A stretch of 64,000 bases of DNA from Armatimonadota bacterium (GCA_018268395.1 JAFDWQ010000010.1:124001-188000); one strand, 5' to 3'; counted from the first letter of the stretch, positions 2,095 through 37,276 are shown. Numbers and translations are program-made. The notes: a model not told the origin generated them from the sequence alone.

Positions 2095-2104
2095 CATAAT
2101 TCTA
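2095..2104. promoter_or_regulatory. Overlapping divergent -10 elements of the arabinose locus
   Basis: The 10-mer CATAATTCTA reads CATAAT on the plus strand (2095-2100) and TAGAAT on the minus strand (2104-2099). A TTGGCA at 2070-2075 lies 19 nt before the plus-strand hexamer. Both promoters share bases, so they could exclude each other. No -35 of good quality was found for the minus strand. Confidence 0.4.
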
Positions 2105-2126
2105 GCCCCACGGGTGGTGGACAAGC

Positions 2127-6049: not shown

Positions 6050-7047
6050 AGCGGCCTGCTTTCATCTGGCCGTTAGGGGCTCTCGTCTTAGTGCTTCTCT
6101 TCAATCTGGTCTTGACGCCTGGGTTCTTCGCGCTGAAGGTACAGGACGGCCGACTGTTCGGAAGCACCATCGACGTCTTGAACCGATCCGTCCCTGTCGG
6201 ACTATTGGCGCTCGGGATGACGCTGGTCATCGCGACGGCGGGGGTCGACCTATCGGTGGGCGCGGTCATGGCGATCACCGGATCCGTCGTGGCGAGCCTC
6301 GTGGCCCGGCCGGACGGGAGCCTGCTCAACGGCGTGCCGACGGGCGGCCATGTCCCGGCGGTCTTGCTCACCGGTTTGGCGGCGGCGGTCGTCTGCGGCC
6401 TCTTCAACGGGCTGCTCGTGGCCGTGTTCCGGCTTCAGCCGATCGTCGCGACCTTGCTTTTGATGGTCGCTGGGCGCGGCGTCGCGCAGTTGATCACGAA
6501 CGGACAGATCGTGACCTTTGAAAACCAGGCCGTACAATCGCTCGGTAGCGGGGCCTGGCTCGGACTGCCCGTGCCGTTGTGGATCTTCCTAGCGGCGTTC
6601 GGGGTCTTCGCGGTCCTCAGCCGGGGGACCGCGCTCGGGCTGTTCATCGAAGCCGTAGGGAGCAACCCCGTGGCGGCCCGGTTGTCCGGACTGTCGGTGA
6701 GCGGAATCCGGACGACGGTCTACGCGCTGAGCGGGCTCTGCGCCGGCGTCGCGGGACTGATCACGACGGCGGACGTCAAAGCGGCCGACGCGAACAACGC
6801 CGGCTTGTACCTCGAACTGGACGCGATCCTTGCCGTCGCGATCGGTGGTACGGCCATGGCGGGGGGACGCTTTTCCCTGATCGGGACCGTGATCGGCGTC
6901 GTCCTGATGCAGGCCGTCTCGACGACGGTGTTCACAAGGGGCGTGCCCCCGGAGGCGACCCTCGTTCTGAAGGCCGTCATCGTCGTCGCCGTTTGCCTCC
7001 TCCAGTCGGAGGCGTTTCGCCAGAAGTCCGTCCGGAGGACGGCTTGA
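6046..7047 (+). CDS. Sugar ABC transporter permease (YtfT-like)
   Basis: 333 aa, about 8-10 membrane spans. It carries the conserved CUT2 permease motif LGMTLVIATAGVDLSVGAVMAI early and the GGTAMAGG loop late in the chain. The start is TTG 6046, overlapping the TGA of the ATPase gene (TTGA). It would form half of a heterodimeric inner-membrane channel with the next gene product. Confidence 0.88.
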   Translation: MKRPAFIWPLGALVLVLLFNLVLTPGFFALKVQDGRLFGSTIDVLNRSVPVGLLALGMTLVIATAGVDLSVGAVMAITGSVVASLVARPDGSLLNGVPTGGHVPAVLLTGLAAAVVCGLFNGLLVAVFRLQPIVATLLLMVAGRGVAQLITNGQIVTFENQAVQSLGSGAWLGLPVPLWIFLAAFGVFAVLSRGTALGLFIEAVGSNPVAARLSGLSVSGIRTTVYALSGLCAGVAGLITTADVKAADANNAGLYLELDAILAVAIGGTAMAGGRFSLIGTVIGVVLMQAVSTTVFTRGVPPEATLVLKAVIVVAVCLLQSEAFRQKSVRRTA

Positions 7048-8012
7048 GGCGCTGGTTCAGCCAAGACCGGTTGCCGGTGATGGCGACGACGGTCGTCCTC
7101 TTGGTCCTTTACTTCGGGGCGCGACAGCTTTACCCCGGCTTCGGCACTCCGCGCGTTTTCGGCAACTTCATCGCGGACAACGCGTTCCTCGGCGTCATCG
7201 CCGTCGGGCTGACGTTCGTGATCCTGACCGGCGGCATCGACCTCTCGGTCGGCTCGTTGTTGGGGTTCACCAGCATCCTGGTCGCGACGATGGTGCAAAA
7301 GGGGCACGTCCATCCGGTCGTGGCCGTGTCGGCGGCCCTGGCCCTTGGGACGGCGGTCGGCTGCGCCCACGGGATCCTTGTTCAAAAGTTCAAGATGGCG
7401 CCGTTCCTCGTGACGCTCGCCGGGCTGTTCGTCTGCCGTGGGTTAGGGTTGTGGACGAGCAAGGAGTCGATCCAGATCAAGCATCCCGCGTTCGAAGCGG
7501 TTTCAGACTGGTCGCTCAAGCTCGGAGAGGCCAAGATGCCGGTCGGCTCGATCGTCTTCCTCGCTGTCGTTGCGATCGGGATTTTCGTCGCGAAGCAGAC
7601 CCGGTTCGGACGGACGGTCATGGCGACCGGCGGCGGCGAGCAGTCGGCGGTCTTGATGGGGCTTCCCGTCGCCCAGGCGAAAGTCGGGGTGTACGCGGTC
7701 AGCGGGTTCTGTTCGGCGTTGGGAGGCGTCCTGTTCACGGTCTATACAGGTAGCGGGAACGCGGTGTCCGGTACCGGTCTCGAGCTGGACGCGATCGCTG
7801 CCGTCGTCATTGGCGGCACCCTGTTGAGCGGAGGGTACGGTTCCGTGTTCGGATCGTTTCTCGGCGTCTTGATCTTGGCCGTCATCCAGACGGCGATCAC
7901 CTTCCAGGGCACGTTGAGTTCTTGGTGGACGAAGATCGTCATCGGCGTCCTGCTCATGTTCTTCCTTCTGATGCAGAAGGCCATCGAAAGAGGCGTCAAA
8001 GGGCGCGCTTAG
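7044..8012 (+). CDS. Sugar ABC transporter permease (YjfF-like)
   Basis: 322 aa, starting at TTG 7044, which overlaps the stop of the first permease (TTGA). The same CUT2 motifs appear: VGLTFVILTGGIDLSVGSLLG near the N-terminus and VIGGTLLSGGYGS near residue 260. Two distinct permeases in one operon is the hallmark of furanose importers (E. coli YtfQRT-YjfF; the L-arabinofuranose GafABCD system). The end overlaps the convergent ankyrin gene by 4 nt, and no terminator hairpin is visible here. Confidence 0.87.
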   Translation: MRRWFSQDRLPVMATTVVLLVLYFGARQLYPGFGTPRVFGNFIADNAFLGVIAVGLTFVILTGGIDLSVGSLLGFTSILVATMVQKGHVHPVVAVSAALALGTAVGCAHGILVQKFKMAPFLVTLAGLFVCRGLGLWTSKESIQIKHPAFEAVSDWSLKLGEAKMPVGSIVFLAVVAIGIFVAKQTRFGRTVMATGGGEQSAVLMGLPVAQAKVGVYAVSGFCSALGGVLFTVYTGSGNAVSGTGLELDAIAAVVIGGTLLSGGYGSVFGSFLGVLILAVIQTAITFQGTLSSWWTKIVIGVLLMFFLLMQKAIERGVKGRA

Positions 8013-8632
8013 AGCGCCGACAGGTCGAGGCCCGCTTCCAGTGCGAAGTCGGCGGCCGACCTGCCTTCGTCGTTCTTCAACCGACTGTCAGCTCCGTACC
8101 GGAGCAACAACGCCACGCAGTCAGAGTCTCCGTTCTGAGCGGCGGCCATCAGCGCCGTATAGCCTCCTTGTTGTCGAGCGTCGGCCGTCGCCCCAGCCTC
8201 TAGGAGAGCCTCGACCGCCCCGGAGTTCCTTCCGAAGACCGCAGCGTGCAAGGGTGCGACCCCGCCGAGGCTGACGGACCGGGCCTCAGGGTCGGCACCC
8301 CAAGCGAGCAAAGTCCGAACGGTCTCGGGAGGCGCAAAAGCCGAAGCCAAGCAAAGGGCCGTGAACCCGTCGGACGAGGGTTCGTCAATACACGAGGAGT
8401 CCGGCCGGAACCGATCGTCGAGCGTGCCCGCCGCAGCAGCGGAATAGACGTCGCACACCCCGCCGTTGGAGACGAGCCAAGCGGCCAACTCCCGTCGACC
8501 GTGGTAGACCGCCACTTGAAGAGCGGTCGCGCCTTGCTCGTCGCGGGCCGTCACCAGCTCGGGACGTTCCGCAGCGAGGGACGCCACTTGACCGACGTCG
8601 CCCGAACGGACCGCGTCCCAGAAGGCCAGCAT
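8009..8632 (-). CDS. Ankyrin-repeat protein
   Basis: 207 aa built almost entirely of ankyrin repeats: units such as GATALQVAVYHGRRELAAWL, GFTALCLASAFAPPETVRTL, GVAPLHAAVFGRNSGAVEAL and GYTALMAAAQNGDSDCVALL. There is no signal peptide, so it is probably a cytoplasmic protein-binding scaffold. Partner unknown. The -10-like CATAAT (8646-8641) ends 8 nt before the ATG, with no Shine-Dalgarno. Confidence 0.8.
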   Translation of the reverse strand: MLAFWDAVRSGDVGQVASLAAERPELVTARDEQGATALQVAVYHGRRELAAWLVSNGGVCDVYSAAAAGTLDDRFRPDSSCIDEPSSDGFTALCLASAFAPPETVRTLLAWGADPEARSVSLGGVAPLHAAVFGRNSGAVEALLEAGATADARQQGGYTALMAAAQNGDSDCVALLLRYGADSRLKNDEGRSAADFALEAGLDLSAL

Positions 8633-8640
8633 GCCTCAGG

Positions 8641-8646
8641 ATTATG
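8641..8646 (-). promoter_or_regulatory. -10-like CATAAT of the ankyrin gene (leaderless type)
   Basis: The gap to the ATG (8632) is 8 nt, too short for a normal ribosome binding site. The hexamer is identical to those of folB and the DASS transporter gene. Confidence 0.45.
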
Positions 8647-8677
8647 GGCCGTGCGCCGCGGTGGTACAACCATCGAT

Positions 8678-9586
8678 GTGAAACTCGTGGCCGAGGGGCC
8701 GGAACGCCTGGACAAGTTCCTGGCCAGGTCATTGCCCGGTCACACTCGCTCCCGGCTTCAGCGTCTTATCTCTGAGGGCCTTGTGACCGTGCAAGGGGAG
8801 ACGGCTTCGAAGGCGGGCCTCGAACTGCGGGAGGGCTGGACGGTAGAGTTGGGCGACGTCCCGGAAACGCCGCCGCACGACCTTGAACCCGTCGCGATGC
8901 CGCTCGATGTCGTCTATGAGGACGACGACCTTTTGATCCTGAACAAGCCACGGGGCCTGATGACGCACCCTGCCCCGTCGTCGAAGTCTCCGTCCCTTGT
9001 GAACGCCCTCTTGGCCCGGTCGCACTCGCTCAGCCAAGGATCGGCGCCGTATCGACCAGGGATCGTCCACAGGCTCGATAAAGACACGACGGGCCTGATG
9101 GTCGTCGCCAAAACGGACGCGGCCCATGCGGGACTGGCCCGGCAGATCGCGGACCGGACGGCCGTACGGGTCTATCTTGCCGTCGTCCGGGGCGATCCGT
9201 TGGAGGACCGGTTCACGATCGAGGCGAACCTCGGCCGGCATCCGACGAGACCGTTGCTCATGGCCGTCCGGACACAAGGGAAGCGAGCGGTGACCCATGT
9301 CCGCGTCCTCAAACGGACGGGCGAATCGTCGTTGGTGGCGTGCAAGTTGGACACGGGCCGGACGCACCAGATCCGGGTGCACCTGGCCAGTTGCCACATG
9401 CCGGTCTTCGGCGACGCCCTGTACTCGTCGAAGGACATGCCGACCGGTCCTTTGCAGTTGCACGCCGTCCTTCTTTCGGTGACGCAGCCTACGACCGGGA
9501 AGCGGATCACGGTGACGTGCGCGCCGCCGGCCGAGTTCATGATCCCGGCCGAGTTCAACGAGGAGGTGCTTTTGAATTGGACCTAG
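8678..9586 (+). CDS. RluA/RluD-family rRNA pseudouridine synthase
   Basis: 302 aa. An S4 RNA-binding domain (residues about 8-60, LDKFLARSLPGHTRSRLQRL) precedes the RsuA/RluA catalytic domain with the HRLDKDTTGLMVVAK motif that contains the catalytic Asp. It converts uridines of 23S rRNA to pseudouridine. The start is GTG 8678. A TACAAC hexamer ends 8 nt upstream and there is no Shine-Dalgarno. The end overlaps radC. RluD is the likeliest family member, but the target site cannot be read from the sequence. Confidence 0.85.
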   Translation: MKLVAEGPERLDKFLARSLPGHTRSRLQRLISEGLVTVQGETASKAGLELREGWTVELGDVPETPPHDLEPVAMPLDVVYEDDDLLILNKPRGLMTHPAPSSKSPSLVNALLARSHSLSQGSAPYRPGIVHRLDKDTTGLMVVAKTDAAHAGLARQIADRTAVRVYLAVVRGDPLEDRFTIEANLGRHPTRPLLMAVRTQGKRAVTHVRVLKRTGESSLVACKLDTGRTHQIRVHLASCHMPVFGDALYSSKDMPTGPLQLHAVLLSVTQPTTGKRITVTCAPPAEFMIPAEFNEEVLLNWT

Positions 9587-24465: not shown

Positions 24466-26283
24466 TCACTTCTTGATGAACTTCTTCTTCGTCTTGTCGA
24501 AGCCCTGTTCGACCTTCTTGTGGTCGTAGTGCCACACGGGCGAACCGGAGCGCTGGTAGAAACACACGTAGCTGGACAGTAGCGAAGCGAGCATCCTTCG
24601 CGACGTCCGCCGGACGACGTTCACTTCCCACAGGATCGTGAGGAAGTCGGCGCCCTTCGGCCAGTGCGTCATGACTTCGCGCAGGACGTCGAACGTCGAC
24701 ATTTCCTCGGCGCGTCCCGCGATCTCACGGAGCTCTTCCATTCGCTGGCTGCTGACGTAGACGACCGGGTCGGTCTGATCGAGCCATGTGAACTCGAAGA
24801 CGTTCGGTTTGCCTGTTTTGGTCAGGCTGAAAACGGCCCCTGACTCGACGGGCTGGTCGAGCCACCAGTCGAAGAAGCCGAACATGAGCCGGATCTCGTT
24901 GTTGACCCACACCTGGAGCTCACGCCCCTCACGGTCGATGAACAGGACTTCCTGGATGCGCGGGTCCGGATCGAACCAGCCGCTCGGGAACTGGGAGAGC
25001 GGGAACGTGCCGAGTTCGCGGTGCACGGGCTTGAGGACGAGCCGGACGGTGTCCATTTCGACCTTCGGCGCGGGAAGGACGTCCTCGTCGTTGACGTCCA
25101 TCGCGAGCGGGTGCACGATGAGTTTCCGCAGCGAACTCGAGAGGCCTTCGTCGGTGAGTTCGACGTCGACGGGGTCTCCGTCCTCTTGAAGGAACTGCGT
25201 CTGTTCGAACAGGAACGGTTCGGGCAACGCTTCGATGAAGTCCGGGGCGCTTTTCGGCTGCCGGAACCGGTCGCCGCCGACCCACCACACGCGAGGGTCG
25301 ACCTTGAGCGCGGACATCATGTTGCGCAAGTCGTCGGGGAACGTCTTGACGGTCGGCGTGACCTCGAACATCGATTCCAGCAGCGAGATCGCGGTCGACG
25401 TCCCGTCGAACCCGGCGATCTTTTCGACGACGCCTTCGATGTCGGACTTCTTGAGTTCGAGCGGGGCGGCGTCTTCGACTTCGATGGTCGGGCTGACCTT
25501 ATCGGACAGCTTGACGGCGGCGCTGACCCACTTCTTGGCTTCGCTCTCCGGATGAAGCGTGCCGTCCGAAGCATAGATGAAGCCGGGGATGCTAAGAAGT
25601 TCGGAGTTAAAAGCGCGCCAATCGTACAGCAGGTGCGAGCGCGGGTCTTGCGGGTTCAAAGCGCGCCAAGCGGCGGCACCGAGGGCCTTGGCCCCGACAG
25701 GCGCGGCCTTCTCCAGGGCCAGCAAGATCGCGTCGTTCTGCGTCCAATCGAAGTCGCCCAGTTTCTTTTCGGCGGCTTCGACCTCTTCGAGGGTGATCTT
25801 GTTCAGTCGGAGCGCCCGATCGACGTCTTCGTCATAGGCGGCGAAGACCATGCCCGCCAAGGCGACACGGTCGTCGAGGATCTGGAAGACGTCCTGCTCG
25901 GACTGGACGATGCGGCGGACAGCGGTCTCAACGTCGTCGACGGGCTTAGACTTAGAGCGCGAGAGCTCGCGGACGAGAAGTTCGAACGGGATCGGACCCC
26001 CGAAGCGGTCGACGACGACCTTCAGGGCTTCGTGGAGGGAACGGCCCTCGCCCTCGAGACGTGCAGCCGGGATCCAGCGGCGCTCGACGTAGGCGAACAT
26101 GACCGGGTTCGACGCAAGGAGCGAGCGGACGGCGGAAAGTCCGAGACCGTCTTGCTGGAGGAGGTCGGCCAGTTCGCTCGGCTTCACGACCTCGTACAAT
26201 TCTGTGAGCTTCTGGAGGATCAGGCGGTCGGCGTATCCGCGCGCGACGCTTTCTTCGGGTTTGAGTTCGTATGCTTTTGCCAA
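24466..26283 (-). CDS. Large unknown protein with helix-turn-helix-like N-terminus
   Basis: 605 aa, no signal peptide, no membrane span. The start is TTG 26283, supported by a strong GGGGAGGGA site. Residues about 10-170 contain repeated helical segments (LYEVVKPSELADLLQQDGLG, VVDRFGGPIPFELLVRELSR) that look like winged-helix or HARE-HTH units. The middle and C-terminus are alpha/beta and end in a basic tail (FDKTKKKFIKK). I do not recognise the family. Probably nucleic-acid associated. This is inference. Confidence 0.6.
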   Translation of the reverse strand: MAKAYELKPEESVARGYADRLILQKLTELYEVVKPSELADLLQQDGLGLSAVRSLLASNPVMFAYVERRWIPAARLEGEGRSLHEALKVVVDRFGGPIPFELLVRELSRSKSKPVDDVETAVRRIVQSEQDVFQILDDRVALAGMVFAAYDEDVDRALRLNKITLEEVEAAEKKLGDFDWTQNDAILLALEKAAPVGAKALGAAAWRALNPQDPRSHLLYDWRAFNSELLSIPGFIYASDGTLHPESEAKKWVSAAVKLSDKVSPTIEVEDAAPLELKKSDIEGVVEKIAGFDGTSTAISLLESMFEVTPTVKTFPDDLRNMMSALKVDPRVWWVGGDRFRQPKSAPDFIEALPEPFLFEQTQFLQEDGDPVDVELTDEGLSSSLRKLIVHPLAMDVNDEDVLPAPKVEMDTVRLVLKPVHRELGTFPLSQFPSGWFDPDPRIQEVLFIDREGRELQVWVNNEIRLMFGFFDWWLDQPVESGAVFSLTKTGKPNVFEFTWLDQTDPVVYVSSQRMEELREIAGRAEEMSTFDVLREVMTHWPKGADFLTILWEVNVVRRTSRRMLASLLSSYVCFYQRSGSPVWHYDHKKVEQGFDKTKKKFIKK

Positions 26284-26349
26284 GGCAAAATCCCTCCCCG
26301 TATGGGATTCGGGGCGAACGTTCAGTCTAGCATACGCGGCCGGGGGTCG

Positions 26350-26832
26350 CTAGACCTTGTTTTTCGGCCGAACGTCTCCAACGATCTGGCGGACGCGACG
26401 ATAGAACCGCACCCAGCTCAAAAGGGTCTCGTCATCGATGGAAGGTGCTTCGATCGTCGACAGTGAGCGATGGGCCGTCCACTGTGCCTGGTCGGCGAAG
26501 GGCCAAAACGGCTGCGGGATCTGCCGATGGAAAAGTCTGAAGAACACCGGAACCCTCCACTTCGGCGCTTCGTCCAGTCCTGACCTGAGGAAGGCGGCAT
26601 ACCTTCTTAAAAGTGCGTTCGTGCCAGGAGTCGGAGGATGGCTCTTGAAGTCATCGTAACAGCACCAGACAGCATTCGCGACCTCGAATGTTTCGTCCGA
26701 CCCGAAGTGCTCCCAGACCGTGTCGTCCAATTCTAAGTTGTCGATCTCCCCTCTCGACCATGCCTCGATCCTGTCGGCCAAGTGTTCCCGCGACTGGGTC
26801 GACGTAGCCTTCTCGGACGCGCCCCCGCACAT
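26350..26832 (-). CDS. Hypothetical protein
   Basis: 160 aa, acidic N-terminal half and aromatic-rich C-terminus (HRQIPQPFWPFADQ). No recognised family. The layout (REHLADRIEAWSRGEIDNLELDDTVWEHFG) is typical of small soluble helical proteins. CATACT (26845-26840) ends 7 nt before the ATG. It lies at the edge of the AT-richer island but has host-like codon use. Confidence 0.5.
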   Translation of the reverse strand: MCGGASEKATSTQSREHLADRIEAWSRGEIDNLELDDTVWEHFGSDETFEVANAVWCCYDDFKSHPPTPGTNALLRRYAAFLRSGLDEAPKWRVPVFFRLFHRQIPQPFWPFADQAQWTAHRSLSTIEAPSIDDETLLSWVRFYRRVRQIVGDVRPKNKV

Positions 26833-26921
26833 GGTTGACAGTATGCAGCCTGAGGCAACGCGCCTGTACCGAGCGTCGTCCCTTCAGTGTGCGTCCGGAT
26901 GTGTGGCCGGGGTGATGTCTC

Positions 26922-27030
26922 GTGCACCCCGGTCGGTACGACAAACTTAACGCGGCGTCAGTTGGAAGACACGTGGTCCCAGAACGAGCCTGCCGTCGAA
27001 GACCAGTGTCCGTTCCGGACCGGGGTGCAC
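26922..27030. repeat. 13-bp perfect inverted repeat around an 83-bp spacer
   Basis: GTGCACCCCGGTC at 26922-26934 and its exact complement at 27018-27030. It lies in the 298-nt gene-free region before the DUF4365 gene, at the left border of the AT-richer segment. It could be a small mobile element end pair or an operator. Nothing else is recognised between 26833 and 27130. Confidence 0.6.
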
Positions 27031-27130
27031 AAATCATCTCCTCGGCCAGGCGCCCGGACCATGCCACGGCCCCCAGACGGCCCCGGAGGACCGGTCATGA
27101 CGATAAGCCAAAATCATTATTGGCGACCAA

Positions 27131-29017
27131 ATGCCAATTCGCACGCGAGAGCACGAGCTCGAAGACGAGAGCCGCAAGGCTTTCTCTGCCGTCCTACCGT
27201 CGGGGTGGACGTTCAGCCGCGTCGACAACGACTATGGCCTTGACGGAGTCGTCGAGCTGTTTGACAAGGGTCAAACCACTGGTCATCTCTTCTGGGTTCA
27301 GCTGAAGGCAACGGACGAAGTCAATCAAAACAAGGCGCTCAAACTGAGGGTCTCGCTAGAGCATTGCCACTACTACAGATCGCTTGAGATGCCCGTCCTT
27401 ATTGTTCGTTACTTGGCATCCTCATGTCGGCTCTTTGTCAAGTGGTTCTGCAAAGTGAGTTTTCGACACGCTCGGGCCAGCGCCAAAACGGTCGGACTAT
27501 CGCTTGCTGCAGCCGACGAGTGGACGGCGAGAACCCTCGAAGAGATTCGGGTTGATCTCGAGCTACTGCGCGTGCTCAAGGAAGGCATGCCACGGGCGTT
27601 TAAGCTTTCTCTCGCGGCTCCCGATCTGGATCCCCAAGCCCGGTACGGAGCCCTGAATTCCATCCGTCGACGAACGTCCCAAAGCAACTTGACACCGACT
27701 CTGGTTGACGGGGACGCGAGCGACGCACTAGTGAGGATATTTATTGGGGATGGCTCTATCACCGTCTGGGTCACGATTCGACGTAGCTTCCGCATACCGA
27801 TCCGTCAGAGCCACCTCGATCCAACGACCGGTGGCGAAGCGATCGCGGCCGATGTGTTGACCATGGCGGGGCTTCTCATTGGATTCTGGCACCGCCTACC
27901 AGGGGGTGAGCTCATCGCCAGTAACGTGCTGGATTCGTCCTTTGTCTCGCCTAGTCTGATGTGCAGCAACCTTGCGATTTCGCTTGCCTCTGTTGGGCGG
28001 TCGGACGACGCCGTGAAGCTACTCACACGTTTGGTGGAGCTGCATTGTGTTGAGGCTTCGTATTGGGTTATCACAGCGTTTCTTATCGCCGGTCTCGACG
28101 GGCCCGAGGCAATGGAGCCCGCACTCGCGCTTGTGCGAAGCATCGGAGCCCGCATAGAACACAGCCTGGGCAGCAAATTCGCCTCAACCCTAGAGTACAG
28201 CGTAGGGAACCGAATCCGGGCTGAGCACCCGGAGCTGGCCTTGGAGTGCTATCTTCTTGCCGCCCAGCTCGATCCAAGCTATAAGGAGCGCGCATATTGG
28301 CACTCTGAACTGGGCGGGATACTCTTTCTCCTAGGTGAGTTCGTTGCGGCGGCGAGGGCGTACTTGCAGGCCCAAGTCATCCAGGAGGAACCAGCCGACT
28401 TCGGCAAATGCGCCGACGCGTTGTTGTTTGCGGGCTTCTATGACGATGCGAAGGGATTCTTCCTAAGGGCCGGGCCAATTCCCGAATGGCGTCTTAAAGT
28501 ACTCCTGTTGGACATGATTGCTGCCGAGGGGTTTCCAAGTACGCAGCGGCGGCACTTAGACGCCGAGTACCGTTGGCCGGCCTTGAAGGGGGATGAGCAA
28601 GCAAGAGTAGGGATCATCCGTAAATGCATGGCCCAAGACGCCCTATCGCCACGCGCCTGGGTATGGCTCAGTGAGCACACAGCTGGTCGTCCGCCTAACC
28701 ACCAAGCCGACTGCCTGACCGCGGCCGCGGTCAGTTCAATGTATGACCCTGTGCTTTGGTGCAGGGCCCTCGTTGTTACGATCGACGCTCTTGGTTTAGA
28801 CAGCGAGAGAACCGCCGATTTGATTGCCTGCGCATGTTTCCTAAATCGAAGTGCAATGTTGGACACTGCGTTGGCCATGAAGCGCGATGGCGTCCCGATG
28901 GATGACGAGGTTCTCCGACGCCTCAGTGAAGAGCTCGCAGGCTTGGACGGCCCTGACGAGGCTCCAATTCTCATTAGGCAGGTGCACGAAGATGGTACCT
29001 ACACCGAAATGGGGTAA
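27131..29017 (+). CDS. DUF4365 (nuclease-like) and TPR protein, putative defence gene
   Basis: 628 aa. Residues about 5-150 match DUF4365: NDYGLDGVVELF (Asp38, Glu42) followed by FWVQLKATD (Gln57-x-Lys59), which fits a PD-(D/E)XK-type nuclease core. Residues about 280-480 are helical TPR-like repeats (LALECYLLAAQLDPSYKERA; AARAYLQAQVIQEEPADFGK). DUF4365 proteins are often found in defence islands. The DNA is clearly AT-richer than its surroundings with different codon use, suggesting recent transfer. The convergent gene at 29030 ends 12 nt away. Confidence 0.65.
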   Translation: MPIRTREHELEDESRKAFSAVLPSGWTFSRVDNDYGLDGVVELFDKGQTTGHLFWVQLKATDEVNQNKALKLRVSLEHCHYYRSLEMPVLIVRYLASSCRLFVKWFCKVSFRHARASAKTVGLSLAAADEWTARTLEEIRVDLELLRVLKEGMPRAFKLSLAAPDLDPQARYGALNSIRRRTSQSNLTPTLVDGDASDALVRIFIGDGSITVWVTIRRSFRIPIRQSHLDPTTGGEAIAADVLTMAGLLIGFWHRLPGGELIASNVLDSSFVSPSLMCSNLAISLASVGRSDDAVKLLTRLVELHCVEASYWVITAFLIAGLDGPEAMEPALALVRSIGARIEHSLGSKFASTLEYSVGNRIRAEHPELALECYLLAAQLDPSYKERAYWHSELGGILFLLGEFVAAARAYLQAQVIQEEPADFGKCADALLFAGFYDDAKGFFLRAGPIPEWRLKVLLLDMIAAEGFPSTQRRHLDAEYRWPALKGDEQARVGIIRKCMAQDALSPRAWVWLSEHTAGRPPNHQADCLTAAAVSSMYDPVLWCRALVVTIDALGLDSERTADLIACACFLNRSAMLDTALAMKRDGVPMDDEVLRRLSEELAGLDGPDEAPILIRQVHEDGTYTEMG

Positions 29018-29029
29018 TAGCCGGCACGA

Positions 29030-30322
29030 TCACCCGCCTTCATCCGTCGTCGGGGTATCTGTTGCGGTGTGAGAAAGCTCTCTTTGGATCTCTGCCTTGC
29101 GCTTCTCGATCGACTTCGTCATGACCGGCATGACGTTTTCCAAGTGCCACTGAATCTCGGTTTCGAGGGGAGGAGCTAGTTCCATCAACCGATCGGTCAG
29201 TAGGGCAAGCACCCCGAGCAAGACGGCCGTGTTTTGGGCTTGCTGCTCGGCGAGCACGGAGAAGATTTTCTGGAATGGTGCGTCCTCGGCCCTAATGTCC
29301 ACGTAATTGTGAGGCTGCAGATCTGCAATTCCACGCTTGTGGAGGATTCCGCTACGGTATTTGTTGAGGTCGTCAATGTTCTCGGACTTTATCATCTCAA
29401 GAACGAATGCCCCGTAATGGGTTTCACGCGCCGTATCCGGGATGGCTGCTTCGAGTGCTCTGACCCTGGATGCATGATTTTTTCTGTCTTCGAGATCCTT
29501 AACACCGAAAACTAGCCCAAGGATGGCCATGGACTTTTCGACAGTAGCCTTTAGATAGGTGAAGATCAGGTCGGCCTGCATTATCGCGTCGACCTCGGCA
29601 TTGATCATCGCAGCGGCCCTTTTGTTGTCGGCGGTGTAAGTGGCCAGCCGCAGGTATTCCTGCATTGCGATTGAAGTCTTCTGTTGTAAGAACAGGATTT
29701 CGTACAGGAAGGCAACGAGAGCGTCTGCCTGCGGATGCCCGGATGCCCTAATACTATGTACTGACCTGTTGAAGTCAACATCGATGAACCATTTTAAGGA
29801 AACGACAGGAATCTTGATCTCCATCGGAAAGACAAGGCTAGCGAGCATGAAGGATCGGGAGCCAATGCCAAGGTTCAGCGGCGGCCAACTCTCTGTCACC
29901 TGGCCCAACCTCAGATACGTCGTCATGGTGAAAACTTTCAGGGCGTCGCATCTCCTTGAGTCGGAGTCTGTAAGCACGACCCCTTCCCGGTCGCGGCTGA
30001 ACCGCACATACATCAGCTCCATAAGCTCAGGCCCGAAGTCTTCTTCCTCGCCGAAGACTTCTTGGGCAAGTATTGTCTTTGCGGACGCCTGCGGCGCACC
30101 GTCCAAAGGTATCCAGCGACGCGTTAAGATGCTCCTGAACTTCCTGGCAAATGGTTCGGCACGCCAAAGAGGCCCTGGCGAAACTGCGGCGAACATTGAG
30201 CCAGCCTGGACCACTTCACCCAAGCTTACGGGAAAGTCCTCAGGGGCCCTGACCCACCAGAGGCAAATCCGTAGCATCAATTTGCTGAGTTGTTTCACAA
30301 TGAGATTTCCCAGTGGACTCAT
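29030..30322 (-). CDS. Putative HEPN-like protein, AT-rich island
   Basis: 430 aa from ATG 30322. It is helical and soluble in the C-terminal half. A KYRSGILHKRG stretch (Arg323, His328) fits the R-x4-H motif of HEPN ribonucleases, embedded in long helices as expected. I do not recognise the N-terminal part. The frame stays open to 30601, and that extension contains Cys pairs (PCHGSPCANC, LCPCHRRRKRYW) loosely like an SEC-C zinc motif, so the protein may start further upstream. AT-rich like the gene it faces. Confidence 0.45.
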   Translation of the reverse strand: MSPLGNLIVKQLSKLMLRICLWWVRAPEDFPVSLGEVVQAGSMFAAVSPGPLWRAEPFARKFRSILTRRWIPLDGAPQASAKTILAQEVFGEEEDFGPELMELMYVRFSRDREGVVLTDSDSRRCDALKVFTMTTYLRLGQVTESWPPLNLGIGSRSFMLASLVFPMEIKIPVVSLKWFIDVDFNRSVHSIRASGHPQADALVAFLYEILFLQQKTSIAMQEYLRLATYTADNKRAAAMINAEVDAIMQADLIFTYLKATVEKSMAILGLVFGVKDLEDRKNHASRVRALEAAIPDTARETHYGAFVLEMIKSENIDDLNKYRSGILHKRGIADLQPHNYVDIRAEDAPFQKIFSVLAEQQAQNTAVLLGVLALLTDRLMELAPPLETEIQWHLENVMPVMTKSIEKRKAEIQRELSHTATDTPTTDEGG

Positions 30323-30632
30323 TTTGGCGTCCGGATTGGGCAACGGCCAGTACCGTTTTCGTCGGCGGTGGCAAGGACATAACGCTCCGTCTGAATATTG
30401 ACTGGGAACCGGTTGGCGAGTGTTTCGGTCCTTGTCCGAAGGACTTCTGCAGTTCGCGCACGGGGAGCCGTGGCAAGGATTGCCAGCCCGGACTTCGTTG
30501 CTCCCAGTATTCCCCCGTCCGGCTACAGACCATGAACCGGTCCGCCCTTCTTCCCGGCCCGACGTCCGGTCTTGAGCGACGGAAGCCGCGTCAGGGGCCA
30601 CTCAGACCTCTTCAGTCGCGACGGCAAAGAAA

Positions 30633-30726
30633 AAAGTGGCCCGAGGAAGACAAAAAGTCGCCCGAGACGCCCCAAGAGTGAACATTGACCGGGCGAAAGT
30701 GGCCATTGTAGGAAAGAAAGTCGCCC
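30633..30726. repeat. 21-nt-periodic AAAGT(G/C)GCC motif array, possible transposon end
   Basis: Copies start at 30633, 30654, 30696 and 30717, so all spacings are multiples of 21, with a decayed copy near 30675. Types alternate GTGGCC and GTCGCCC. Regular about-20-bp transposase-binding repeats occur at ends of IS21- and Mu-like elements. The array lies at the right border of the AT-rich island. No transposase gene remains nearby. Confidence 0.5.
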
Positions 30727-30870
30727 AAGAAACTCAATAAGGGGCCCGGATATTGATGGAACAAGGTGTAGGCCAGGTTCACAGGAGCCCCTTCTCCTTG
30801 CGCGAGGGTTCGTGCGCGGAGGGAGATGGGCCGGGGATGAGGGTTCCGTCCAGGACCTCGTGAGAATGCA

Positions 30871-31026
30871 CCCTCACCCTCATCCCCCTCTCCCCCGGAG
30901 AGGAGAAGGGGTTCCAGAACGGTCGAGAGGTCGAAGGGAATCCCTCAAGGCTTAGCGCGAGGCGACCTTCGTCGTCGGCGCTTCGACGAGCGACGCGAGG
31001 TAGGGGCTGAGGTTCTCGGCGGCGGC
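30871..31026. repeat. Direct repeat, copy A (duplicated 3' end of the TPR gene)
   Basis: 156 bp, close to 87 percent identical by eye to 31052-31207, offset 181 nt. It contains the pyrimidine-rich CCCTCACCCTCATCCCCCTC stretch, GTTCCAGAACGGTC and a second copy of the last about 25 codons of the TPR lipoprotein gene. Confidence 0.8.
30952..31026 (-). pseudogene. Duplicated C-terminal fragment of the TPR lipoprotein gene
   Basis: Encodes AAENLSPYLASLVEAPTTKV and a stop, nearly the same as the end of the functional gene at 31133. It has no start codon or promoter and arose by the 181-nt tandem duplication. The rest of the 810-nt stretch 30323-31132 holds the 21-nt array and repeats only. Confidence 0.6.
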
Positions 31027-31051
31027 ACGGGGCTGAGACTGACGGCCTGAC

Positions 31052-31207
31052 CCCTCACCCCCATCCCCCTCTCCCCCGGAGAGGAGAGGGGGTTCCGGAG
31101 CGGTCGAGAGGTCGAAGGGAAGCCCTCGAGATTCAGCGCGAGGCGACTTTTGTCGCCGGCGATTCGACGAGCGAGGCGAGATACGGACTAAGGTTCTCGG
31201 CGGCGGC
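31052..31207. repeat. Direct repeat, copy B (native 3' end of the TPR gene)
   Basis: Continuous with the TPR gene. Stop codon at 31133-31135, followed by the pyrimidine-rich stretch shared with copy A. Confidence 0.8.
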
Positions 31208-32416
31208 GAGGCGGGTGCGGCCTTCGTCGACCTGGCCCGCGGCTTCTGCGATCCGACCGGCGCGGGCCCACAGCACGGGTTCCTGTACTCCGCTCGCAAG
31301 GCCCTTCCTGATCGTCGCGGCGGCGTCAGACGATCGGCCGTTGGCGAGCTGGGCCCAGGCAAGGGCGCTATAGGTCTGCCAGTTGGTGTGCTCCTTCGCT
31401 TCCGACGTCATCAGCTCAAGGGCTTCCTTGAGCTTAATGCCTTGGGCGAGCCAGTTCTCCGCCTGGACGACCTCGTCGCCATGGATGCCGTAGGACAAGT
31501 GCTCCTTGATGATGTCGTCGACCATCTGATGCTGCTTGGCGGCTTCGTCACGGCGGCCGGCTTTGGCGAGGAGCGAGGCGTATTCGATCCTGTAGAGTGC
31601 AGGGCACTTCTGATCGAGAGCCTTGGCGAAGAAGTCCATGCCTTCGTCGTCCTTCCTTTGCGAGAAGCGCACCCGTCCCATACCGAAGAGCGCGTGCCGG
31701 TACTGAGGATCGCGATCGAGAGCGCGCTGATAGGCGCGACCCGCCGCCGCGACGTTGCCGGTCTTGAAGGCTAGGTCGCCCACCTGGGTCATGCACCAGA
31801 GCGTGTTCTCGCCGAAGGGGGCGCCGGCATCCGCCGCCTTTTCCATGAGCAGGACCGCGCCTTTGGCGTCGCCCAATGACCACCGGTACTGCGCAGCACG
31901 ACTGTAGCTGGCCAGGTCCGGTCGGAGGTCGAGCATTTTCTGCGCCGAGGCTCCGGCTTCCTTATAGCGGCCGAGTTCCATTTCGCTGTCGAACTTCACG
32001 CCGTAGGCGAAGGGATCGATCGGGTTCTGGGCGAGGGCCTTGTCCGCAAGGTCGCGAGCTTTGTCGAAACTGTGGAACATCGTCCAGCACCATGCGAGGT
32101 TGTGGAGCGACACGGGGTCTTTCGGTTCGAGTGCGACCGCGTTTTCGAACGCGGCCAATGCACCTGCATAGTCGTCGAGCGCCGAGTGTTCACGGGCGCG
32201 CTGCATCAGGGCCTGACCAAGGTCGTTGTATCCCTTCGCCTTGTCCGGATGACGTGCGACGAACTTCTGGGCAGCGGCGATCATGCGGTCGGCACGGCTG
32301 TCGCCTTGGGCTTGGACGCGCTTGAGATCGAGTCGGCGGGCTTCGGTCGGACCTTGGGGGGCGCAACCGGCGATGGTCAGCGAAACAAGGGCAAGGATGA
32401 CGGTGGAGGTCTTCAT
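31133..32416 (-). CDS. TPR-repeat lipoprotein
   Basis: 427 aa. The N-terminus MKTSTVILALVSLTIAGCAP carries a lipobox (TIAGC), so the protein should be lipid-anchored. The rest is tetratricopeptide repeats (KGYNDLGQALMQRA, VSLHNLAWCWTMFHSFDKAR, GNVAAAGRAYQRALDRDP). It is the last gene of a three-gene minus-strand operon with the pseudopilin (5 nt upstream) and the DUF4331 protein. The role is probably as a scaffold for the secreted partner proteins, which is inference. Its 3' end is duplicated downstream. Confidence 0.82.
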   Translation of the reverse strand: MKTSTVILALVSLTIAGCAPQGPTEARRLDLKRVQAQGDSRADRMIAAAQKFVARHPDKAKGYNDLGQALMQRAREHSALDDYAGALAAFENAVALEPKDPVSLHNLAWCWTMFHSFDKARDLADKALAQNPIDPFAYGVKFDSEMELGRYKEAGASAQKMLDLRPDLASYSRAAQYRWSLGDAKGAVLLMEKAADAGAPFGENTLWCMTQVGDLAFKTGNVAAAGRAYQRALDRDPQYRHALFGMGRVRFSQRKDDEGMDFFAKALDQKCPALYRIEYASLLAKAGRRDEAAKQHQMVDDIIKEHLSYGIHGDEVVQAENWLAQGIKLKEALELMTSEAKEHTNWQTYSALAWAQLANGRSSDAAATIRKGLASGVQEPVLWARAGRIAEAAGQVDEGRTRLAAAENLSPYLASLVESPATKVASR

Positions 32417-32421
32417 GGCGA

Positions 32422-33318
32422 TCAGCGGGGAGGGTCGTTGAGGGGATAGCGGACCTTGTGGTCTGGGAACTGGTCGAGACGGGCCCGGCCCCACCGGAGC
32501 CATTTGGAATGTCCGTCGGCATAGATGTAGTTGGCCCCGCCGTTGTGACGGTCGAACTTGATCCAGCCTTCGCGAGGCCGGCTGCCCGCGCCCCATTGGA
32601 CGAGAGCGGCTTCGCCGGCCCAGGCGTCGTAGTCGTCTTGGGCGATGGCGTGGAAACCGCTGTCCGGATCGGCGAAGCCTTCGGAGTTCCTTTCAGAGAA
32701 CAGGATGAGGTTCGGATCGGCCAATCCGGCGAGGGCGGAATCGGTCGCAAAGCCGGAAATGACCCCTTCCAAGGCATAGCGGCAGGACTTATGGGTGAAC
32801 ACGCTGTTGAGGAGGTAGCTCCACATCGTCAGGTTGTTCCGTTCGGCCTGGCAGTGTTCGCCCTTCGGAGCGATGTCGCACTCCGTGCCGATCGTCTCGA
32901 TGCCGCCGTTATAGTCTTCGATCGAGGTCGCCGGCTCTCGGCTCTTGGCGGTGGGGTCGTGTGGGCAGTAGGCGACGGCGCGTGACTTGGCGTAGGGTTG
33001 GAAAATCACGGCCCAAGGCTTTTCGGCCTGGCTGTTGCCGAAACCGCCGCCTTGACACTGGTCAGCGGTCGCAGGAAGGTCGACCGTCAGCGTACCGTCG
33101 TCGAGCACCCAGTCTTCGTGGTGGCGGAAAAGGGCGCCTTCGTTATCGTCCATGTAGAGACGGGCGGCCACGGACAGTTGCTTCGTGTTCGACAGGCACA
33201 TGGTCTTGCCTGCGGCCTGTTTCGCCTGGGTAAAGACAGGGAAGAGGATCGCAGCGAGGATCGCGATGATCGCGATGACGACGAGAAGTTCGATCAGAGT
33301 AAAGGCGCGGTGTTTCAT
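32422..33318 (-). CDS. Type II secretion-like pseudopilin with H-X9-DG motif
   Basis: 298 aa. The class III prepilin signal is [20 protein letters not shown], with Ala rather than Gly before the Phe, followed by one long hydrophobic helix. The C-terminus carries the [12 protein letters not shown] motif of the H-X9-DG/DUF1559 group that is expanded in Planctomycetes and Armatimonadota. It would be processed by a prepilin peptidase and inserted in a fibre or secretion pseudopilus. Middle gene of the DUF4331-pseudopilin-TPR operon. Confidence 0.85.
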
Positions 33319-33372
33319 GGGGTTTCTCAGGTCTTGGAACCGGGGGCGGTCGTCCGCCCCCGGTCGAGGACG

Positions 33373-34794
33373 TCAGTCGTGGAGCGTCGTCCCCGGGCCG
33401 CCCCAAGGCGTGCCGCCATAGGGGAAGACCCTGTCGTAGACCGTGTCGTTGGCGTTCATGTTGTCGCCGACGGGTGTGATCGTCTGATAGCTCGGGCCGC
33501 TTGCGATGGCCGTCAGGGCGATGTCGACGACGTCGTCGCCGAAACGCCGTCCGTTCGGCCAACCCGAGGCGACGGGTTGCCCGGAGAAGCCGCTCGTGAC
33601 GGTGTCGCCGCCGAAGACGCTCAATCGGCTGTAGCCCGCGTCACCCGGGAGCGGGACGGACGGGGTCGAGAGATCGACCTTGAGCACGTCCGGGATGAAG
33701 AACCCGACCAGGTCGGTGCGGTTGTTCACCTGGAAGTTCGTGCCAAGGACGGCATTGAGGAGAAAGGCCAGTTCGCAGTTCTCCGCGTACTTCTTGAACC
33801 GGGCGACATCGGTCGTCGGAGGGTTCTGGTTGTAGCGGTCTTTGTCAGCGAGGGCGACGAGGGTCTCGTTGAACAGAGGGTTACCCATGCGCGAGACTTG
33901 CACCCATCCGCCGAACCGCGTGTTCTGCTCGGAGTTCTCGGCGATTTTGAAGCTCTGGCGGAAGGTGTTCCCGAAGACGCCGATGACGGGGTATTCGCCT
34001 TCACCGATGATCTGCGAGATGGGGATCTGCAGGTCGATCGAGTGGACGTTGGTCCCCGAGAAACCGTCCTTCCCCGTTTGGCGCACGCCAAGGAAGTCGA
34101 AAATCGCGGGAGTATCGGCGTAGAACCCGTCTTCCCGCTGACCTGCGAACACCTTCGTGCCGTCGTTCAACGTGAAGACGGTCTCTTGGACGTATTGGGG
34201 AAGGTCGTTGAAGGTCGACGCGCCTTGGAGGCGGTTGCCGCCGTTGTCGTAGTACTTCGGCGTCGTGCGCGGGCCGACGTTGACGGGCGGGCACTTGAGG
34301 ACCTGACCGTCTCCGAGATTGATCGTCTGGCCGCCCCTCGTCAGGATGCAGGTGTACGTCTGCGTCGCGTTCTGACGGGGATCGTCGGTGCTGAGGATCG
34401 GGCCTGCCTCTGTGCCGAGACCAAAGCTGAGGATCGTGTTCTTGTTCTTGTAAGTCGTGCGGAACTTGAACGTATAGGTGATCGAGGGAGTGCCCTCGAA
34501 GACGTAGTCGTTGCCTTGCTTGACGGGCTTGGCGATATTGATCTGGTAGATGACGTCTTCGGCGAACTTGTCGAAGATGACGCCGTTGCCCGGGTCTTCG
34601 AGCGGGTTGACGTTCATCGCAAGGTTCAGGACCTTGACGCCTTGGGCGTTGTTCCTGACGAAGGCGTAGACGTCGGTGATGTTGGCGGCAGGGTCGAGCA
34701 CCATCATCGGAGCGTCGCTGTGGCTTGCGGCCATTGCGTTCGTCCCGACGAGGGCCGCGAGCGCCGCTCCGGTCCATCGGATCAAGGGTTTCAT
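33373..34794 (-). CDS. Secreted DUF4331 protein
   Basis: 473 aa from ATG 34794 (GGAG 6 nt upstream). The signal peptide is LIRWTGAALAALVGTNAMAA. DUF4331 begins with ASHSDAPMMVLDPAANITDVYAF, the family's typical start, and includes NPLEDPGNG and the late GGDTVTSGF and FGDDVVDIAL. Function not known. Members are exported beta-rich proteins, often found with TPR and cytochrome-type partners. It heads a three-gene operon. The 282-nt region upstream (34795-35076) holds nothing else recognisable. Confidence 0.85.
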   Translation of the reverse strand: MKPLIRWTGAALAALVGTNAMAASHSDAPMMVLDPAANITDVYAFVRNNAQGVKVLNLAMNVNPLEDPGNGVIFDKFAEDVIYQINIAKPVKQGNDYVFEGTPSITYTFKFRTTYKNKNTILSFGLGTEAGPILSTDDPRQNATQTYTCILTRGGQTINLGDGQVLKCPPVNVGPRTTPKYYDNGGNRLQGASTFNDLPQYVQETVFTLNDGTKVFAGQREDGFYADTPAIFDFLGVRQTGKDGFSGTNVHSIDLQIPISQIIGEGEYPVIGVFGNTFRQSFKIAENSEQNTRFGGWVQVSRMGNPLFNETLVALADKDRYNQNPPTTDVARFKKYAENCELAFLLNAVLGTNFQVNNRTDLVGFFIPDVLKVDLSTPSVPLPGDAGYSRLSVFGGDTVTSGFSGQPVASGWPNGRRFGDDVVDIALTAIASGPSYQTITPVGDNMNANDTVYDRVFPYGGTPWGGPGTTLHD

Positions 34795-35076
34795 GTGTTG
34801 CTCCGGGGCCCTGTCGGGCACCCTGCATCAGTGTCGTCGGCCTGCGTGACGGTCGGATGTGCCCCGGCTGAACGAAGGATGAATGCGGGGAGAGGGAACG
34901 AGGAACGGACGGAAAGGGGACGGATAGGTCGAAATCCCGGGCGAGCGTAGCGAGGGACCGACCGAGCCGAACCAAGTCGATAGTGACGGAACGGTCGGAC
35001 ACACCCTTGACGGACGTTGGGTTCTGTCCACCGCATGGTTGACGCGGGCGTCGGCCGCCGACGAGGAAACAGCGTC

Positions 35077-35832
35077 ATGAAGGCGAACACCAGTCCACCC
35101 CCACTCGATCCGGCGTACACCTGGATCGACCGCCGGGCCAAGCTCTTCGAAGCCGGCGACTATCCTGACAAAGGTCTGACCGTCGACGAGGACGACCTCC
35201 TCAAACTCCAAGACACGTTCGGCGCCCCGGTGCCCGTGCTGATCGAGCACGCCGACTCGCCCCTCCAACTCGGTTTCCTGACCGGAGTCGAAGCCCAAGG
35301 CCACGAGCTCTTCGGGATGGTCGCGCTGACTAAGGAAGCGAACGACCTGATCGAGGCATCGGGGGCGCACTCGCTCTCGCTCGGTCTCGATGCCGCGCTC
35401 TCGAAGATCCAAGAAGTCAGCCTCGTGTCACGGCCTCGCGTACCTTCGGCCCGCCTGTTCCATGGAGAGGTCCTGAGCCTCGAACCGGACTGGCAGACCC
35501 GTTTCCGGCGTCTCGAATCGGACGTTGCGCGCCAGTCTGCCGAAACCCAGGTCGCGCGGCTCCTGAAGGAAGGGAAGCTGGTCCCGGCCCAAGCGGAAGC
35601 GGCCCTCGCCCTGCTCGAGGGGTCGCAGACGGTCACGTTCGACGGCGGCCCTGCTCCAGTGTCCTCCGTCGTCTTGCGGTTGCTGGAATCCGCCCGCGCC
35701 CACACCCTCTTCGCTCCGACGGCGCCGGAAAGTGCTCCACCGACCGGGATCCCGGACGACGAACGCGCGTTCTACGAGCGCTACTTTGGCGGTTTGAGCC
35801 TCGAGGAAATCGCAAAGCACCGCGGAGCGTAA
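35077..35832 (+). CDS. Phage head protease/scaffold-like protein (Mu gpI type)
   Basis: 251 aa from ATG 35077 (AGGA 10 nt upstream). Residues about 35-140 follow the Mu gpI-like prohead protease pattern: PVLIEHADSPLQLGFLTGVE, LFGMVALTKEANDLI, SLSLGLDAAL and EVSLVSRPRVPSARLF (corresponding to DH..LG, VEWT, SPVF and ALTNRPA of that family). The C-terminal half is helical and could act as scaffold. The next gene is a capsid-decoration-like protein. Host-like GC content. No other head or tail genes are present. Confidence 0.5.
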   Translation: MKANTSPPPLDPAYTWIDRRAKLFEAGDYPDKGLTVDEDDLLKLQDTFGAPVPVLIEHADSPLQLGFLTGVEAQGHELFGMVALTKEANDLIEASGAHSLSLGLDAALSKIQEVSLVSRPRVPSARLFHGEVLSLEPDWQTRFRRLESDVARQSAETQVARLLKEGKLVPAQAEAALALLEGSQTVTFDGGPAPVSSVVLRLLESARAHTLFAPTAPESAPPTGIPDDERAFYERYFGGLSLEEIAKHRGA

Positions 35833-35861
35833 GCCCGCCGTTCCGAACCTGAACCACACCT

Positions 35862-36299
35862 ATGTCCTTATCCAAAGCATTCGAAACCTATGAACGCCCC
35901 GGCCTCGTCGTCAGCTACAAGACCGCGGCCGTGAAGGTCTACAAAGGCGCCGCCGTCGGCGTCAACGCCCTCGGCTACCTGGTCCCCATGTCCCACTCGA
36001 CCGCGAGCTTGAAGTTCGTGGGCACGGCTAACGAGACCGTCGACAACACGGGAGGCGCTTCCGGCGATAAGTCCGTGAACGTGACCAAGTCCGGTTCCTT
36101 CGTCTTCAAGGCCGCGAGCGGGTTCACCCCCGTGGTCGCCGATGTCGGCAAGGAACTCTATGCGGCGAGCGACTGGGAGGTCCAGACGACCAACGCGGGC
36201 CTGACGAACAGCTACAAGGTCGGCACCGTCGTCGGCCCTGAGACGACCTCGACGGGCCAACCCGGCTACCGGGTGAGGATCGACAACTACACCGTTTAA
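35862..36299 (+). CDS. Capsid decoration-like protein (DUF2190 type)
   Basis: 145 aa, beta-rich, no signal peptide. VKVYKGAAVGVNALGYLVPM, FVGTANETVDNTGGASGDKS and VNVTKSGSFVFKAASG follow the pattern of phage capsid cement proteins that bind the head surface. It lies 29 nt after the protease-like gene, as in tailed-phage head operons, but the expected major capsid gene is missing. The stop codon directly abuts the stop of an AT-rich minus-strand gene. Confidence 0.5.
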   Translation: MSLSKAFETYERPGLVVSYKTAAVKVYKGAAVGVNALGYLVPMSHSTASLKFVGTANETVDNTGGASGDKSVNVTKSGSFVFKAASGFTPVVADVGKELYAASDWEVQTTNAGLTNSYKVGTVVGPETTSTGQPGYRVRIDNYTV

Positions 36300-36686
36300 T
36301 TAGGAATCAGAAAATGGATCGAACTCATCGGGCTTCACAAGATTTTCGACTCGAACTTGGAGTGTCTCCTCGAGTTCCGATGCCATGAGGTCTAGCACTT
36401 CCTGAAGTCCTAGCGCATTTCTACGCGCTGCCTCGTGTAGATCTTTATAGGCGCGGTAGTAGTCCCCGCTCCAAAATATTGATTCTTCCATCGGAGTCTC
36501 GTTTGAGTCTAGAACAGCAAAGCGGTAACCCTCATCGATTCCATCGAAAACATGTTCAATGCCGATGCGGCCGTCGCCAATTTCTGCGATATATAAGTCG
36601 CTTGCCTGGCTACTCCTACGCCAGTCAAGTTTATTCCTTCTGGTGGCTAAATCTGCGAGTACAAACAAATCTGCAATCGTTTTCAT
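36300..36686 (-). CDS. Hypothetical acidic protein, AT-rich module, second gene
   Basis: 128 aa, acidic, soluble. Its ATG overlaps the TGA of the upstream membrane-protein gene (ATGA), so the two form one unit. There is no recognised family. The N-terminus (MKTIADLFVLADLATRRNKL) is helical. AT-richer than neighbouring genes and with different codon use, so probably transferred. An immunity or antitoxin role is conceivable but unsupported by any motif. Confidence 0.5.
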   Translation of the reverse strand: MKTIADLFVLADLATRRNKLDWRRSSQASDLYIAEIGDGRIGIEHVFDGIDEGYRFAVLDSNETPMEESIFWSGDYYRAYKDLHEAARRNALGLQEVLDLMASELEETLQVRVENLVKPDEFDPFSDS

Positions 36687-37276
36687 GTGGTCGGTTTTTG
36701 ATCGTATGGTAATCGGGCCCGTACACTTTCTAAGATTGGAATGGACGGGGCAATGAACTGTGAAACCTTTTCTGCTGAGAATGTGTTTTTGGTTTTGCTT
36801 TGAAGATGCAATTCAAGTTGGGTAGCCAGGTGCCTCCCAGCTTTCAATACGGTGTCAAGCACGTCAAGTTCTTCAGGGCTGAATAGCGTGGGAGTCTGTC
36901 GAAGACGGGTGAGTGCATCGCAAAAATCCTGTAACCTTACATAGCCAGCGTCGAACTGCTTCGTCCTTATGTAAAGTACGGCCTCCTGAGCCAGTCTTCG
37001 ACAGTGGACGATTTCATCTGCTGAGATAAACCGCCGCAGTCCAGTCTCTGTCCTCCTCACCGTGGTCTCAATGAGCTCCGCCCGTCGTGTCAATGTTCCC
37101 AGTTGAATAAAACTGAACGTCAGTGCAAGGCAACCTACGAAAGTCCCGATCGTCGTGATCCAGTCATATCGGGTCGCGCTGGGATCTTGCGTGAGCCACA
37201 GGACAATCACTACAAGTCCAAGAACCGTTGCGATTAACCAGCCCGCCAGCCTTGAGAAGATCGAGGAGGAATTCAA
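36683..37276 (-). CDS. Membrane protein with cytoplasmic helical domain, AT-rich module, first gene
   Basis: 197 aa. Two membrane spans (about residues 8-27 and 42-60) are followed by a soluble helical domain of about 135 residues. The topology (two short TM helices and a cytoplasmic tail) is shared with many small effector proteins in defence systems, but no specific family is recognised. Coupled to the next gene by ATGA. The 219 nt upstream (37277-37495) contain a terminator for the preceding operon. Confidence 0.5.
   Translation of the reverse strand: MNSSSIFSRLAGWLIATVLGLVVIVLWLTQDPSATRYDWITTIGTFVGCLALTFSFIQLGTLTRRAELIETTVRRTETGLRRFISADEIVHCRRLAQEAVLYIRTKQFDAGYVRLQDFCDALTRLRQTPTLFSPEELDVLDTVLKAGRHLATQLELHLQSKTKNTFSAEKVSQFIAPSIPILESVRARLPYDQKPTT

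Follow-up and report, generated by a model that had tools for sequence, protein, structure and literature searches.

The DNA analysed here, a window of 64,000 nucleotides that corresponds to 124001-188000 of contig 10 and from whose first letter all positions are counted, comes from an Armatimonadota bacterium with a 3.7-Mb genome that is 99.8% complete. Gene A (27131-29017, plus strand) encodes a protein of 628 amino acids in which a small beta domain lies between a DUF4365/DREN nuclease and a TPR solenoid. It faces gene B (29030 to about 30322, minus strand), an orphan of about 430 amino acids whose reading frame is open to a GTG at 30601. As the preliminary description had it, the two genes are convergent and separated by 12 nt, the stop codon of A ending at 29017 and that of B beginning at 29030. 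Their GC content is indeed lower than that of the surroundings, but modestly so: 1-kb windows across A give 0.58 and those across B 0.534, as compared to a genome mean of 0.631 (sd 0.026; 810 sampled 1-kb windows, 4.2% of which lie at or below 0.58 and 0.9% at or below 0.534). The different codon use is also recovered, with a GC3 of 0.65 for A and 0.64 for B versus about 0.80-0.83 in nusA, ispH and the 605-residue flanking gene, the values of A and B ranking only near the 20th percentile of a reference set in which spurious ORFs are included.

The genes lie between two anchors. On the left there is a conserved gene of 605 amino acids (24466-26283, minus strand) with full-length matches that are 57-76% identical, present in all eight relatives searched, and on the right a gene at 35017-35832 (plus strand). 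In relative G001 these anchors are only about 0.3 kb apart, so that G001 lacks the entire stretch 26284-35016, and with it A, B and several further genes. The designation of this stretch as a variable spot is thus supported, and the moderately AT-rich character of the DNA, together with its absence from close relatives, makes an insertion plausible.

Domain architecture of gene A

The N-terminal DREN nuclease domain of A comprises aa 1-152 (27131-27586, plus strand), with D38, Q57 and K59 as the predicted catalytic residues and with E42 and E11 conserved. Next comes a small beta-rich linker domain (aa 158-223; 27602-27799, plus strand), apparent from the secondary structure of the AF2 model, and then a TPR-like alpha-solenoid (aa 234-605; 27830-28945, plus strand), which is indicated by Pfam TPR, AF2 and Foldseek/VIA. 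Pfam places DUF4365 at aa 11-139 (E 1e-14; 55.2 bits versus a curated cut-off of 24.3) and finds TPR as well, in agreement with the initial assignment of A as a DUF4365-TPR protein. In PADLOC, A matches the Argonaute-associated nuclease Aga_REase, a match restricted to part of the nuclease (20-102), and beyond this Argonaute-associated nuclease PADLOC has no model for the DREN-TPR architecture. A search of solved structures gave the DREN-APAZ protein of SPARDA as the first match, and in a PDB profile search, where TPR proteins dominate, DREN-APAZ is still among the matches.

The nuclease-like D-E-QxK core that had been read from the sequence is borne out by closer comparison. In a pairwise alignment, D38, Q57 and K59 of A fall on D41, Q60 and K62 of NbaSPARDA with identical spacing, and these are the catalytic residues of the latter (PMC12205087). 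Across 32 aligned relatives with identities of about 12-26%, the core is kept as well: D38 and Q57 never vary, and E11, E42 and K59 are each conserved in at least 90% of the sequences. The (near) invariance of D38, Q57 and K59 among such distant relatives indicates that A is an enzyme under selection.

Structure prediction, which had been put forward as a check, points in the same direction. The AF2 model of A has a pLDDT of 86, and Foldseek matches it to SPARDA and to TPR proteins, the latter over residues 248-602 (Foldseek/VIA). In VIA-align, residues 1-152 of the model rank six SPARDA DREN chains at the top (Z 12.6-16.6), the best being 9qcc_A with a Z of 16.6 (144 residues aligned at an rmsd of 2.7), and the DUF4365/DREN fold is therefore present in the model. 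Taking sequence and model together, A is a predicted PD-(D/E)XK nuclease of the DUF4365/DREN type with an apparently intact active site.

The fold extends beyond SPARDA: residues 4-150 of the model match I-Ssp6803I with a Z of 11.3 and the DREN fold of A matches Hjc resolvases with 10.1-10.4. These likenesses, and the fact that several relatives of A adjoin restriction systems, would fit a restriction-type or repair nuclease that acts sequence- or structure-specifically on invading or damaged DNA and is not an abortive effector. We nevertheless regard such an enzyme as unlikely, since the SPARDA DREN domain, with its known collateral activity, is by far the closest (Z up to 16.6) and has the same D-Q-x-K residues, and since in A only the TPR part, and no DNA-recognition domain, is seen.

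Distribution and neighbours of the DREN-TPR architecture

A tblastn search of plasmids returned full-length relatives of A in Vibrio and Curtobacterium and partial ones in Agrobacterium, Aliarcobacter and others, and a scan with an A profile found 47 loci in a collection of genome contigs. About 30 relatives, belonging to Pseudomonadota, Bacteroidota and other groups, are intact and have a length of 600-670 aa and a constant architecture. The full-length relatives, whether plasmid-borne or chromosomal, are mostly 18-26% identical to A. Within the phylum, 17 of 291 genomes have a profile match at E 1e-10, many of these to the TPR part only. No counterpart of A was found in the other members of the genus or family that were searched, and no relative in the phages or viral contigs searched.

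Genes adjoining the relatives of A encode type III RM, SMEK, McrBC, a DUF1016 (YhcG) nuclease, SAVED-HNH and SduA-like proteins, and further RES, TIR, HipA, SatD, relaxase, resolvase and IS21 proteins; from this raw listing of neighbours, the surroundings look like the company of defence islands and mobile elements. The neighbours vary from locus to locus, the largest recurring family being found at three loci, and a comparison of neighbour families across loci yielded no conserved partner gene. Some 30 relatives of the same length thus recur without a conserved partner, by which A is classified, on its sequence, as a member of a widespread family of stand-alone DREN-TPR proteins. In the papers found under the name DUF4365, it is most often regarded as a nuclease domain of short-Argonaute systems. 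No paper on DREN-TPR proteins was found in a search that missed most subscription papers, and within the literature searched the architecture seems to be undescribed.

The patchy occurrence of A and the location of its relatives near defence and mobility genes make it reasonable to speak of a transferred defence gene. That much of the transferred defence module proposed beforehand can be retained for A; its extension to a pair with B is unsupported. We consider it fairly probable that A is a horizontally acquired, stand-alone nuclease of the defence type. Some relatives are located on plasmids, beside relaxase or resolvase genes, and it could be imagined that A is instead a growth-arrest toxin or a nuclease of mobile elements, involved in plasmid competition or maintenance and not in phage defence; an antitoxin-like conserved partner was, however, not found among the neighbours, and this role appears decidedly improbable.

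Gene B and the repeats at the edges

The first 92 codons of the longest reading frame of B have GC contents of 0.63/0.66/0.60 at the three codon positions, versus 0.57/0.39/0.64 in the remainder. As the codon-position pattern is missing in this first part, translation probably starts at the internal ATG at 30322 and not at the GTG at 30601, which gives a predicted protein of 430 aa. Its C-terminal half is mostly helical and contains R323-x4-H328, the sole R-x4-6-H motif of the protein; an R-x4-H occurs in 41% of shuffled versions of B, and a stricter form in 7.7%. The whole ORF has no Pfam family above the cut-off and no match in PADLOC, NCBIfam or PDB, with sub-significant matches only in PHROGs, and none of these five collections gave a HEPN match. 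The AF2 single-sequence model, built without relatives, has a pLDDT of 38 and is unfit for a fold search. A HEPN-like nature of B is possible. A match to DUF5932 on a sub-stretch (23.9 bits versus a cut-off of 23.7) is treated as chance, as DUF5932 had no match at E 0.001 when searched against the whole genome of the organism itself.

No relatives of B were detected in 291 genomes of the phylum, in plasmids or in phages. Close relatives were also not found in two contig collections, genomic and viral, which were scanned with exact 8-residue peptides, a method that reaches close relatives only. At the 51 A-like loci not a single B relative is present, the best E value with all filters off being 1.1. 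The proposed survey of neighbourhoods has thus found no co-occurrence of A and B elsewhere, which speaks against the claim of a pair, as does the convergent layout, which is not operonic. Most of the sequence features first described for this locus are real, while the two-gene defence module built upon them is left without support.

One could still suppose that the DREN-TPR nuclease cooperates with a HEPN RNase, or that B restrains A, given that the two genes are adjacent and convergent with merely 12 nt between them, have a lower GC than their flanks and are both missing from relatives. We judge this very improbable: apart from the empty A-like loci, B is lacking even in those genomes of the phylum that have other DREN-TPR genes, the relatives of A have no conserved partner, A and B are on opposite strands, and the GC difference between them (0.58 versus 0.534) suggests separate origins. 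As far as the evidence goes, the pair is an accident of neighbourhood. B is best read as an orphan unrelated to A that lies in the same insertion hotspot, possibly as a further accessory gene.

The repeats were at first taken to border the island. On the left, the 13-bp inverted repeat is confirmed, with GTGCACCCCGGTC at 26922-26934 and GACCGGGGTGCAC at 27018-27030, and is the core of an imperfect inverted repeat of 42 nt (26893-26934 and 27018-27059). Its arms correspond to a REP doublet of the REPIN/BIME-like kind, with the first arm on the plus strand (26893-26934), found at about eight other places in the genome, and the second inverted on the minus strand (27018-27059), 79% complementary to the first. 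For the stretch 26885-27070 the folding energy is -99.4 kcal/mol, well below that of shuffled sequences (z -6.3). A REP unit of about 38 nt, GGCGCGTGGCCGGGGTGATGTCTCGTGCACCCCGGTCC, recurs in contigs 1, 3, 8 and 9; in contig 3 two inverted copies of 40 nt that match at 98% lie 574 nt apart and flank an ORF with a Y1_Tnp match (23.6 bits versus a cut-off of 23). The same layout is known for REP elements with a RAYT transposase (PMC3116915, PMC2817692). Given these dispersed REPs flanking a Y1 transposase ORF, the left inverted repeat (REINTERPRETED) is, by sequence comparison, a genome-dispersed REP pair and not an island-specific boundary. The repeat itself stands but its function as a border does not: it is part of the genome-wide REP furniture.

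On the right, upstream of B, the reported 21-nt periodicity is confirmed, AAAGTSGCCCRAG being located at 30633, 30654 and 30717, with a weaker in-register copy at 30696, in an array that spans 30633-30730. The array is found nowhere else in the 3.7-Mb genome, and no similar DNA was found in plasmids. It could be an operator array. An IS21-like terminus was considered and rejected, as there is no IS21 element in the genome and no similar plasmid DNA. Rfam gave sub-threshold chance matches only. Somewhat further to the right there is a dispersed intergenic repeat (30784-30930), of which the genome contains about 20 partial copies, and near it a duplication of 149 nt (30871-31019 and 31052-31200).

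The presence of repeats at both edges, and the lack of the stretch in relative G001, might suggest that A, B and the repeats constitute one mobile element that ends in the inverted repeat on one side and in the 21-nt array on the other. Such an element is scarcely credible: the left REP doublet occurs at many sites and is elsewhere tied to a Y1 transposase, the right array is unlike the left repeat and unique in the genome, no transposase or integrase is encoded by the ORFs scanned, no relic of an IS21-type IstB is found in the genome save two weak ATPase matches, and the stretch absent in G001 (26284-35016) is far larger.

Proposed role and likeness to known systems

In SPARDA, the DREN domain alone is monomeric and inactive, and its tetramerisation on filaments gives rise to a collateral nuclease (PMC12205087). 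Activated DUF4365-APAZ cuts DNA nonspecifically, and Q62A/K64A served as its inactive mutant (PMC10810196). By analogy, A is probably an abortive-infection nuclease, in which the TPR solenoid would stand in the place of the APAZ/Argonaute part of SPARDA and is proposed as the sensor or oligomerisation part. In the resting state, the DREN domains of A would be monomeric and inactive. Recognition of an infection-specific protein or assembly by the solenoid would gather several copies of A, and the clustered DREN domains would then form an active nuclease that degrades DNA, and possibly RNA, indiscriminately, resulting in death or arrest of the cell, by which the infection would be stopped. All three steps, namely sensing by the TPR part, activation through clustering and an abortive outcome, are extrapolated from SPARDA.

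On this basis, it may tentatively be proposed that DREN-TPR proteins constitute an Argonaute-free defence family, in which infection is sensed by the TPR part in place of a guide RNA and a collateral nuclease of the SPARDA type is switched on through clustering; we hold this to be possible, with less confidence than the defence-type assignment of A itself. If true, DREN would be a modular "kill switch" that is paired with different sensors. Should DREN-TPR proteins act in defence as single-gene nucleases, SPARDA's collateral nuclease would be a portable effector that is not bound to Argonaute. With about 30 intact members, the family provides genes that are directly testable.

Several known systems resemble parts of the locus. 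Like REPIN/BIME elements with RAYT (Y1), the left edge has two inverted REPs and the genome has a Y1_Tnp gene between REPs; the approximately ten strong copies in this genome are, however, far below the number of typical REPs. The homing endonuclease I-Ssp6803I has the PD-(D/E)XK fold in common with residues 4-150 of A (Z 11.3) and is a D2 tetramer, like the active DREN (PMC12205087), but it is a sequence-specific intron endonuclease without TPR, unlike A. The DUF4365 (TPR) proteins on plasmids of Vibrio, Curtobacterium, Agrobacterium and Aliarcobacter and at about 30 chromosomal loci have the architecture and length of A, and none of them is accompanied by gene B. In the SPARDA systems of Novosphingopyxis, Xanthobacter and Thermocrispum, which consist of DREN-APAZ and a short pAgo, the DREN domain is N-terminal as in A, catalytic residues and spacing are identical, and the best structural matches of A are found. 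In contrast to SPARDA, A is a stand-alone gene that has no APAZ but a TPR-like solenoid at residues 234-605; no short pAgo gene is found among the adjoining ORFs that were scanned, those of B, the 160-aa and 605-aa proteins and the TPR protein having no Piwi/Ago match in Pfam. A has its effector in common with SPARDA without being a SPARDA system.

Repeats to the right of the orphan gene

Upstream of gene B, the minus-strand orphan, lies a 21-nt-periodic AAAGTSGCCCRAG array (30633-30730), which occurs only here within the genome and is possibly an operator array or the relic of a transposon end. It is followed by a 149-nt direct duplication (30871-31019 and 31052-31200, 88%), which takes in the 3' end of a TPR lipoprotein-type gene at 31133 and also spans the CCCTCTCCCCCGGAGAGGAG repeat, dispersed in the genome.

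Conserved genes and a second AT-rich stretch

Two conserved genes, of 251-271 aa and 145 aa, occupy 35017-36299 and have counterparts in relatives (L028, L029 and L031), where a 313-aa gene comes after them. These genes resemble ones for phage head proteins (a protease, a decoration protein and perhaps the major capsid); those of 35017-36299 are nonetheless kept in relatives, and possibly constitute an encapsulin-like or domesticated phage module. Next to them, a second two-gene AT-rich stretch (36300-37276, minus strand) has the lowest 1-kb GC of the whole window, 0.525. Its membrane-anchored ORFs of 128 aa and 197 aa overlap by 4 nt, and a Pfam search of both gave no match.

REPs elsewhere in the genome

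On contig C3 (L107, G000:C3:404000-418000), a REP cluster (6137-9447) surrounds a RAYT-like Y1_Tnp gene, itself bounded by 40-nt inverted REPs, and includes a 272-aa orphan ORF enclosed by 26-nt perfect inverted repeats (6188-6213 and 7271-7296). On contig C9 (L108, G000:C9:181000-188000; 2026-3711), the same REP is found about 80 nt away from where an AAA_21/AAA_15 ATPase gene starts; a small partner gene accompanies the ATPase gene, and a HicB-like ORF lies on the REP's other side. REPs may thus mark accessory-gene spots in this genome; the ATPase and its partner are defence-like, resembling OLD/AbiEii systems.
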